Positions 41,494 through 44,325 of a stretch of 64,000 bases of DNA are shown piece by piece. Made by a program: the position numbers and the translations under genes. The stretch spans positions 980,001-1,044,000 of the forward strand of contig NZ_AP023212.1 in the NCBI RefSeq assembly GCF_016593255.1, in the 5' to 3' direction. Origin of the DNA: Hydrogenimonas urashimensis (GTDB lineage: Bacteria; Campylobacterota; Campylobacteria; Campylobacterales; Hydrogenimonadaceae). The notes below the pieces were generated by a model. The model was not told the DNA's origin, did not search any database, and saw nothing but the letters and a program-made list of their open reading frames with translations. How positions within the stretch are numbered: position 1 is the first letter of the stretch; each line of letters begins with the position of its first letter.

Positions 41494-41935
41494 CGACAAC
41501 CAGGGTGGAGGCTACTTTGTCATGCCATGTCTGGCGAAGAGGGTCGAAAAAGGCCCAGGCAAAACCAAGATAGAAGACCATGCCGCTGATGACACGGAAT
41601 ATGGCGCGATTGAAAGCGACGGAGAAACGGGGCCTTTGCATTGTCCCTGTCTCGACCACGACCATTTTCATCGCGATTTTCCCGAGTGTCGCGCCATACT
41701 GCCAGACAAACCATGTATGGTAGATAATGTGCGCCGTCGCAATCAGCAGCCAGACGCTGTTGATGACGGCTGCAACCTCCTGCGGCCCCTGTGCCATCGA
41801 AATCGGCTGCCACAGGAGTATTATAAAGATTATACTGATCAACATATCGTCGATGGCGAAAGCGACGCTTCGCCTGCCAAGCGGAGCGGGTTGCAGACCG
41901 CTCTTGCGCAGGCGGTTTTCTATCGGCTCATCCAT
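41486..41935 (-). CDS. RDD-family membrane protein
   Basis: 149 residues from ATG 41935, overlapping purD by 8 bases. RDD features: [20 protein letters not shown] (Arg, Asp, Asp), two membrane helices and [17 protein letters not shown]. Function of RDD proteins is mostly unknown, some act in ion or osmotic stress transport. Confidence 0.85.
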
Positions 41936-43208
41936 CCGTCTGACGCAGCGCCTGATAGGCGATGTCGCTTCGGCACTGTTTGCCGGCAAAATGGACCTGC
42001 CCGCAGAGCATGTAGGCGTTGTCCCGGGCTTCTTTGATCGAATCGCCGAGCCCGACACATACGAGTACCCGGCCGCCGGTCGCCATCAGTTTCCCGTCGA
42101 TGAGGGAGACACCGGCGAAATCGATGTGCGCTTTTTCGGCCAGTTCGGTATGAACGATCCTGTCGATGATGATCTCCGCCGGCTCGCTGCTTTTGTAGGG
42201 GTAGTTGCGGCTTGCCATGACGACACCTACGGCATATTTGTCCATGAACGCCACATCGAGCTCCTTAAGTCTTCCGGATGCGGCTTTGTCAAACAGCTCT
42301 CCCGCCGGCGTCTTCAGAAGCGGCATCAGCACTTCACACTCGGGATCGCCGAAGCGCACATTGAATTCGAGGGTATAGGGTTCGTTGTCGACGATCATCA
42401 GGCCGGCAAAAAGGACACCTTCAAAAGGCATCCCTTCCTCCGCCATTCCGTCGACGGTGGGCTTGATGATGCGCGCCTCGATCTTGCGGTAGAGTTCGTC
42501 GTTGATCAGCGGCGTCGGGGCGTAGGCTCCCATCCCCCCCGTATTGGGCCCTTCGTCATTGTCGAGAAGACGCTTGTGGTCCTGCGCCGCGGGCAGCAGC
42601 ACGTAGTCTCTGCCGTCGCAGATGGCAAAAAGTGAAAGTTCATACCCATTAAGAAACTCTTCCACGACGATCTTGGTCCCGGCTTCGCCGAACGCTTTGC
42701 CGCTGAGCATTTCCGAGGCGGCCTTTTTCGCTTCGTCGCGGCTTTTGGCGATAATGACACCCTTGCCGGCACAAAGCCCGTCCGCTTTTACGACAATCGG
42801 TTCGGTTAGCGAATCGATGAACCCGAAAGCCTCCTCGATGCTCTCCGTCTCGACATAGCGGGCCGTCGGAATGTTATGGCGCGCCAGAAAGTTTTTCATG
42901 AAAATTTTGCTGCCTTCCAGCTGTGCCGCCTTCTTCGAAGGCCCGAAAATCTTCAGTCCCCGTGCCTTGAAAATATCGACGATCCCTCCGACAAGCGGCG
43001 CTTCGGGACCCACGATCGTCAGCTCAATCCCCTCTTTTTCCACATAGTCGGCCAGCGCTTCGTAGTCGCTGATATCGACATTTTCTCCCATCTGCGGCGT
43101 CGCCCCGTTACCCGGTGCGAAGTAGATCTTCTCCACCGCCGGATCTTTGTGCAAAGCACGCCCTATCGCATATTCACGTCCACCGCTTCCCACGACCATC
43201 ACTCTCAT
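41928..43208 (-). CDS. purD: Phosphoribosylamine-glycine ligase
   Basis: 426 residues, full length for GARS. N-domain [23 protein letters not shown]-grasp with [11 protein letters not shown] and [20 protein letters not shown], and [20 protein letters not shown]. It makes glycinamide ribonucleotide in purine synthesis. The 380-base upstream region is noncoding and structured (see separate entry). Confidence 0.97.
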
Positions 43209-43233
43209 ACCGAAGACCCTTTTTTAACAAAAA

Positions 43234-43327
43234 ATTAAAAACTAAAAATTGTAGTGAGCTGCTGACGCAGAGAATATATACAATTGGAAAAAGCAGACCG
43301 TTGGGTAAAATTTTTAGTTTTTAACTT
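43234..43327. repeat. AT-rich inverted repeat pair upstream of purD
   Basis: AATTAAAAACTAAAAATT (43233-43250) has its inverted copy AATTTTTAGTTTTTAA at about 43309-43324, with a further TTTTAGTTTTG downstream. Arms of about 16 bases, 60 bases apart. Function unknown; they flank the purD promoter region. Confidence 0.6.
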
Positions 43328-43343
43328 TTAGTTTTGTTGGATT

Positions 43344-43560
43344 GTGACCGAGCGGGCGTTCACGCGTGAGTGTGGTCCATCAATAGACCAACGGTGCAGG
43401 AGGGAGATGCGCTTTAGGCGGCAGCTTCTCGCCGTTGGCTCCGGCTCGAACGAAGTTACCGACACACCACGCATCTACGCCAATCCCGCGATATCAAAGT
43501 GTTGGACCCCCGATATGCGGGTAGCGCACCGCTCAGTCACCCTGACGGCCGGAAGGCCGT
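43344..43560 (+). ncRNA. Unidentified structured RNA candidate
   Basis: Stems read from the plus strand: P1 GTGACCGAGCGG (43344-43355) with CCGCTCAGTCAC (43529-43540), one mismatch; P2 43364-43374 with 43463-43472, ten pairs and a bulged A; P3 TGGTC/GACCA; P4 CCAACGG/CCGTTGG (43388-43394, 43432-43438); P6 43485-43495 with 43512-43521, ten pairs and a bulged G; P7 ACGGCC-GGAA-GGCCGT, a GNRA loop. I do not recognise a known RNA class. A possible promoter TTGGAA-16-TAAAAT lies at 43284-43311. Strand is favoured by the GNRA loop, not proven. Confidence 0.45.
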
Positions 43561-43589
43561 ACAGCTAATTCAATTATACTCCAAATTGC

Positions 43590-44294
43590 TTAATCGGGGA
43601 CTAAATTTTTCGAAAAACGGATCGCTTCGTCGATGGATGTGGAGGGAGAAATTGCCGGTTTGACGCCATTTGGGAATGCTTGTGCCGTTTTGTTGCCGAT
43701 GGCCACCGCCTTCCAGCTTTCGTCCCAGTCGAAATTTTCGAAGAAACATTTGACGATGGAAGGAGCAGTGAAAATGAGAACGGCGCCCGCTTCCGGTCTC
43801 TGCTTTCGTTCGTAATGACTGCAGGAGGTTTCGTAAACGACCGCCTCTTCCACTTCGATGCCCGCTTCTTGCAGCTCTTTGGCGATTTTTGAGACCACCA
43901 CCCTGGGACGGGCATAGAGCCAACGCAGTTTTTTGAAACGCTTCGCCAGCTCTTTCGCCAATACATCGCCGTAGGCTTTGGACGCGACGTAAATCACTTT
44001 CCCTCCCCGCGCTTGCGCTTCCGCCGCCGTCTGCTTTCCGATGGCCGCCACCGGCAGCCTTTTCCACGCCCCGCCAGAAACCTCATCCAAAGCGACAATC
44101 CCTTGCCTTGAGGTAAGAATTATGGCGTCGAACCTGGAAAAATCGATGGTTTGTGGCAGCAGCGTAAAACGGATCATCGGAAGGTGCTTCGCCTCCGGCC
44201 GGGAGGTGGGGGAGAGAAGGTAGATTCGGGTGGGTGTTGCGTGTCGGGTGTCGGGCTTCTCGGCGGCCCGCACCGCTTCTTTCTTGTTTCTCAT
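43590..44294 (-). CDS. hemD: Uroporphyrinogen-III synthase
   Basis: 234 residues from ATG 44294; the true start is uncertain because residues 1-25 look non-conserved. FSRFDAIILTSRQGIVALDE, PVAAIGKQTAAEAQARGGKV, RWLYARPRVVV and AVLIFTAPSIVKCFFENFDW match HemD, which closes and inverts ring D of the tetrapyrrole. It follows guaA by 31 bases. Confidence 0.82.
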   Translation of the reverse strand: MRNKKEAVRAAEKPDTRHATPTRIYLLSPTSRPEAKHLPMIRFTLLPQTIDFSRFDAIILTSRQGIVALDEVSGGAWKRLPVAAIGKQTAAEAQARGGKVIYVASKAYGDVLAKELAKRFKKLRWLYARPRVVVSKIAKELQEAGIEVEEAVVYETSCSHYERKQRPEAGAVLIFTAPSIVKCFFENFDWDESWKAVAIGNKTAQAFPNGVKPAISPSTSIDEAIRFSKNLVPD

Positions 44295-44325
44295 TTCACC
44301 GTTCACGCCGCGGCAACGCTTTGCC

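Follow-up and report, generated by a model that had tools for sequence, protein, structure and literature searches.

Genomic context of the RNA upstream of purD

The stretch of Hydrogenimonas DNA analysed here (64 kb, hereafter the window) carries on its minus strand, in the direction of reading, hemD, a TATAAT box, a structured RNA and purD (Table 1), and guaA lies further upstream, beyond hemD. The position of the RNA upstream of purD, noted in an initial annotation of the DNA, was borne out by the Pfam domains of the downstream gene. The encoded PurD protein is 93% identical to PurD of the metagenome-assembled genome Hydrogenimonas sp. MAG GMC4.metabat2.119. Judged from the −10 box, transcription of the RNA would be expected to start near position 43566 of the minus strand. 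A TATAAT-like box was found upstream of the RNA 5′ end in 68 out of 69 loci scanned; in the remaining one (L048) it is located further upstream owing to an insert of its own. Between the RNA and purD we also observed a very A+T-rich inverted repeat with 28-nt arms (43226–43253 and 43306–43333), which are 89% complementary and separated by 52 nt. As its 16-nt core has no second occurrence in the genome, the repeat is not a dispersed element.

Table 1. Coordinates of the features at the hemD–purD locus, given as positions in the window.
Feature	Position	Strand	Basis
purD, downstream of the RNA	41928..43208	-	Pfam GARS_A, GARS_N, GARS_C
6S RNA core, ~197 nt, closing stem to closing stem	43344..43540	-	match of full-length model R1
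P1 closing stem, 3′ strand	43344..43358	-	covariation; included in RF01069, unpaired there
Release-type hairpin, 3′ central bubble (second hairpin of RF01069)	43372..43391	-	pairing in homologues
GGACC, 3′ strand common to P2 and the release-type hairpin	43374..43378	-	pairing in homologues
Apical arm, three stacked stems	43405..43476	-	agreement with RF01069 structure; pairing in homologues
5′ side of central bubble, presumed product-RNA start zone	43490..43503	-	position between P2 and apical arm
P2 5′ strand GGUCC, closing-stem side of central bubble	43504..43508	-	pairing; absent from RF01069
P1 closing stem, 5′ strand, one conserved bulged base (43528)	43525..43540	-	pairing and covariation
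Extra 5′ hairpin ACGGCC-UUCC-GGCCGU, between promoter and 6S core	43545..43560	-	sequence; two nearest relatives
Putative promoter of the RNA, -10 box TATAAT	43573..43578	-	sequence
hemD, upstream, ends just before the RNA promoter	43590..44306	-	Pfam HEM4

Relation to the Rfam families RF01069 and RF00013

The initial annotation had described the region as a multi-branched RNA of unknown family. A search against Rfam instead assigned it to RF01069, the "purD RNA motif", which matched positions 43478–43346 of the minus strand along the complete model (positions 1–125 of 125) with 80.3 bits, compared with a gathering score of 41. This was the sole gathering-level Rfam match across the window, and at the same level none of the known purine riboswitch families gave a covariance-model match there. 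Within the phylum, RF01069 was detected in 376 of 397 Campylobacterota genomes, representing 61 of 68 genera, and it was absent from all 14 control genomes.

RF01069 is a 5′-truncated 6S RNA that comprises the 3′ two thirds of the molecule. The model leaves out roughly the first 60 nt of the RNA and with them the 5′ strands of the closing stem (P1) and of the adjacent helix P2; the 3′ strand of P1 is contained in the model, yet left unpaired. Rfam assigns the family to the class Cis-reg. Since an entry labelled "purD, Cis-reg" is part of a 6S RNA, Campylobacterota genomes may carry an annotated riboswitch candidate and no 6S RNA.

The Rfam 6S model, RF00013, gave 10 weak matches in the 397 Campylobacterota genomes (E ≤ 0.1; best 45.5 bits). 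All of them coincided with RF01069 in locus and strand and covered model positions 1–187 (for L106 the overlap was judged from coordinates alone), reaching about 60 nt further in the 5′ direction and 5 nt further in the 3′ direction than RF01069. Two additional RF00013 matches fell on this RNA in genomes that RF01069 had missed, which gives 12 full-model copies in total, the best of the two sets scoring 45.5 and 45.7 bits, respectively. No Campylobacterota match attained the RF00013 gathering score of 46.4, a threshold set for curation that does not define 6S RNA in biological terms. The window's own RNA gave no match to RF00013 even at E ≤ 1, and it is thus connected with E. coli 6S RNA by way of its more conservative Campylobacterota relatives. 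In G000, the complete genome to which the window belongs, a single RF01069 match was accompanied by no RF00013 match anywhere, leaving no other candidate for 6S RNA.

Folding, strand and covariation of the RNA

The minus strand of the region (43578–43340) folds at −107.6 kcal/mol, compared with −83.9 ± 4.8 kcal/mol for 200 shuffled sequences (z = −4.9), and none of the 200 was as stable. The stems listed in the initial annotation are therefore present beyond chance, and its view of the region as a functional structured RNA was supported by fold stability together with covariation among homologues. For the latter, we aligned 64 homologues with the 5′ extension by sequence alone, and evaluated covariation against a tree-based null of 40 simulated alignments, in which E values below 0.025 are not resolvable.

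The top covarying pair of the whole alignment, 43531–43353, falls within the closing stem (E < 0.025, tree-based null). In P1, 96.6% of the cells were paired in the 64 homologues and two-sided changes occurred at 8 of the 13 counted pairs, so the compensatory changes that the initial annotation had proposed to look for in 43344–43355/43529–43540 do exist. The outermost pairs, 43540–43344 and 43539–43345, are unconserved. The mismatch described earlier in this stem is real on the plus strand, as a C·A opposition at 43349/43535, but read on the minus strand the two bases form a U·G pair, which all 64 homologues share. The stems of the apical arm were 91.6–94.8% paired in the same set, with many two-sided changes. 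For the whole rod we obtained 94.5% pairing and 478 cells with a two-sided change vs. 76.1% and 140 in shuffles, and sliding the partners as a control lowered the pairing to about 45% or less. The result is a rod of about 185–200 nt with a covarying closing stem, a central bubble and an apical arm, as is characteristic of 6S RNA. The minimum-energy fold of the window copy also contains hairpin A (43482–43521), which was considered as a further conserved element and rejected, being paired in 38.6% of the homologue cells.

The G·U count of the rod discriminated clearly between the strands: 398 cells fit the minus strand only, vs. 31 (A·C-only) that fit the plus strand only. Together with the strand of the RF01069 match and the TATAAT-like box, this places the gene on the minus strand, and not on the plus strand preferred by the initial annotation on account of a GNRA loop in what is a lineage-specific hairpin.

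From the 64 homologues, window copy included, a full-length covariance model (R1) was built, which matched the window at 43545–43343 of the minus strand with 171 bits. R1 recovered the RNA, in some cases weakly, in 18 of the 20 listed genomes of the phylum missed by RF01069, and in named contigs of Hydrogenimonas, Sulfurovum, Nitratifractor and Nitratiruptor it likewise located the RNA ahead of purD. E. coli ssrS was not recognised by R1; homology to the E. coli RNA consequently rests on the bridge that RF00013 forms via the divergent Campylobacterota copies. Five draft assemblies (G012, G013, G018, G187, and G369) had neither an RF01069 nor an R1 match, owing either to loss of the RNA or to missing sequence. 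Another draft, G004, contained two RF01069 matches of equal score (C104:285-417 and C111:2687-2819), which perhaps represent a duplicated contig end and not two genes.

The RNA as 6S RNA of the Campylobacterota

6S RNA is a regulator known to bind RNA polymerase and block it. In Campylobacter jejuni, a 185-nt RNA encoded ahead of purD is surpassed in abundance only by rRNA and tRNA among the non-coding RNAs; it adopts a 6S-like fold, gives rise to a 13-nt antisense product RNA, and its 5′ end lies upstream of the place where Weinberg et al. 2007 had predicted a "purine riboswitch" (PMC3847290). The 6S RNA of Helicobacter pylori likewise lies upstream of purD, and a product RNA was reported for the 6S RNAs of both species (PMC3847290). 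The paper on 104 candidate RNAs contains no mention of purD (PMC2864571).

In the light of these data, we conclude with a probability of about 0.93 that the RNA at 43344–43540 in Hydrogenimonas is the Campylobacterota 6S RNA (ssrS), encoded on the minus strand after hemD and provided with a putative TATAAT promoter of its own. The initial annotation had found no match to 6S RNA; the coincidence of all ten RF00013 matches with this locus, the covariation of the rod and the reports on C. jejuni and H. pylori (PMC3847290) indicate that the RNA is nevertheless the 6S RNA of the phylum. That Campylobacterota possess 6S RNA is already known, and what is new here is the copy in another species.

The window copy agrees with the 6S RNAs of C. 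jejuni and H. pylori (PMC3847290) in its place upstream of purD and on the purD strand, in a length near 185–200 nt, in the succession of closing stem, central bubble and apical arm, and in a 5′ end that lies ahead of the earlier "riboswitch" prediction. It differs from them in that a further 5′ hairpin separates promoter and core and no U-run follows the closing stem; a product RNA is here presumed. With E. coli-type 6S RNA as described by RF00013 it shares a homologous rod, a P2-like helix beside the bubble and an E. coli-type release hairpin, whereas its sequence falls below detection by that model and the 12 Campylobacterota copies that span the full model are all sub-gathering.

Mutually exclusive helices at the central bubble

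Helix P2 (43508–43504 with 43374–43378) was paired in 319 of 320 cells (99.7%), with two-sided changes at four of its five pairs, and it has a counterpart in RF00013, the GAgCC/GGuUC helix. Single P2 pairs are too conserved to reach significance in the tree-based null; the support for P2 thus comes from near-perfect pairing maintained through independent two-sided changes and from the RF00013 counterpart. The release-type hairpin (43391–43385 with 43378–43372) was paired in 84.6% of the cells, with two-sided changes at five of seven pairs. As both helices use the same 3′ strand, 43374–43378, they are mutually exclusive. When either P2 or the hairpin was forced in the 64 homologues, the mean difference between the two folds was 0.2 kcal/mol (sd 4.4). 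In the minimum-energy fold of the window copy the hairpin is formed and not P2, the P2 fold being 4.8 kcal/mol less stable, and the 5′ side of the bubble makes a hairpin of its own.

In E. coli and other gamma-proteobacteria, synthesis of the product RNA unwinds the bubble-adjacent helix of 6S RNA, and the freed 3′ strand makes a hairpin in the 3′ side of the bubble which drives release (PMC8876501). The 6S RNAs of Bacillus subtilis and Aquifex undergo a different rearrangement (PMC8876501): B. subtilis 6S-1 and Aquifex aeolicus 6S RNA share with the window RNA the rod with a central bubble and the general promoter mimicry (PMC8876501, PMC4227106), but they form a central bubble collapse helix, whereas in the window RNA the hairpin is built from the 3′ strand of P2, as in E. 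coli. In its architecture the conserved pair of P2 and hairpin is that of an E. coli-type 6S release switch, in which the hairpin would have the role in release that it has in E. coli.

By analogy with E. coli, C. jejuni and H. pylori, from which its polymerase binding, product RNA and release are predicted, Hydrogenimonas 6S RNA, whose transcript ends are also predicted, would work as follows. The rod, consisting of P1, P2 (GGUCC/GGACC), the central bubble and the apical arm, would mimic an open promoter and would bind and hold the housekeeping RNA polymerase holoenzyme. When nucleotides return, the polymerase would begin a short product RNA at the 5′ side of the bubble, probably at about C43501 as placed by position against U44 of E. 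coli, and would read back through P2. Once free, GGACC could then pair with GGUCU beside it, giving the hairpin 43391–43372, which would lead to release. We give slightly better than even odds to the combined reading, according to which Campylobacterota 6S RNA has an E. coli-type switch made of two co-evolving helices of near-equal stability and a Hydrogenimonas subclade has acquired a 5′-extended 6S RNA through a hairpin, fast in sequence change but self-complementary throughout, placed between promoter and core. The competition between P2 and the hairpin makes the E. coli release mechanism testable in Campylobacter and Helicobacter.

Association with purD and alternative interpretations

In 65 of the 69 loci, purD followed downstream on the same strand at a distance of at most 500 bases. 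On the other hand, six genomes, five of family f12 (L108–L112) and one of family f8 (L114), kept the RNA with purD absent within 1.5 kb downstream. In L108–L112, guaA and a hemD-like gene are still found ahead of the RNA, and the downstream neighbour varies: L108 has a hydrogenase-like gene there, L109 an HD-GYP-like gene, L110 a convergent tRNA, L111 a gene for a LysE-like transporter and L112 one for a sensor-like protein. In L114 the RNA is preceded by a fragment of guaA plus one further gene, and a convergent lipoprotein-like gene follows it (in all six loci, gene names, tRNA excepted, were read off translations). The next gene is hence on the opposite strand in two of the six loci (L110 and L114).

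The frequent association in the phylum raises the question of whether the 6S RNA doubles as a 5′ leader of purD by read-through, 6S being cut from a longer transcript. No terminator of the window RNA was found in the region (one chance-level match lies elsewhere). The window copy has no U-run behind P1, so read-through into purD, which starts about 135 bases further on, is possible in this species; of the 69 loci, only 28 had TTTT no more than 10 bases from the RNA 3′ end. Against this, in C. jejuni the RNA builds up as a transcript of its own (PMC3847290), and some lineages without purD at the site still keep the RNA. We consider such a double role conceivable, but less likely than not. It would in any case add to the 6S explanation and does not exclude it.

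Much less can be said for a cis-acting, riboswitch-like leader that senses a metabolite and controls purD. The original CMfinder proposal reportedly implied such a leader, as does the Cis-reg label under which Rfam files RF01069, and the same-strand purD in most loci speaks for it. A leader should, however, always precede purD or another controllable gene, and L108–L112 and L114 keep the RNA before unrelated or convergent genes. Because six genomes retain it without purD, the RNA is not primarily a purD riboswitch, and a trans-acting RNA fits the data where a leader does not; purine riboswitch or purD leader was rejected as its main function on these grounds. The separate, very abundant 185-nt transcript of C. 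jejuni (PMC3847290), the agreement of the architecture with 6S RNA and the lack of a match to any known purine riboswitch family in the window also argue against a leader, which we regard as very improbable.

The reading as a plus-strand RNA of uncharacterised type, with the GNRA hairpin, has a negligible chance of being correct and was rejected on the Rfam strand and the G·U count given above; the GNRA hairpin, moreover, is unconserved. In favour of this reading, the plus strand of 43340–43578 also outfolds most shuffles (z = −3.2), its loop at 43551–43554 reads GGAA and a weak promoter-like match lies on it at 43284–43311 (1 found vs. 0.6 expected).

The extra 5′ hairpin of a Hydrogenimonas subclade

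With the RNA taken as minus-strand 6S RNA, the hairpin at 43545–43560 is a lineage-specific 5′ addition outside the conserved 6S core. The GNRA hairpin that the initial annotation had included in its RNA is thus present in the sequence but not part of the conserved molecule, and its loop reads UUCC on the minus strand. The genome contains a single exact copy of this palindrome, and its interpretation as a dispersed repeat was considered and rejected, as four copies with two mismatches were found vs. one in the reversed control.

Hairpins at the same site, different in sequence but self-complementary, were found only in the two nearest relatives, G009 (L048) and G004 (L042). These two and the window species have about 25–30 extra bases between the −10 box and the closing stem, and the three insert hairpins are strong, with energies of −14.6, −16.7, and −10.9 kcal/mol. 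In other Hydrogenimonas the −10 box directly adjoins the closing stem and core. The insert region corresponds in the window to 43545–43572, and among the three sisters its sequence changes while its self-complementarity is kept.
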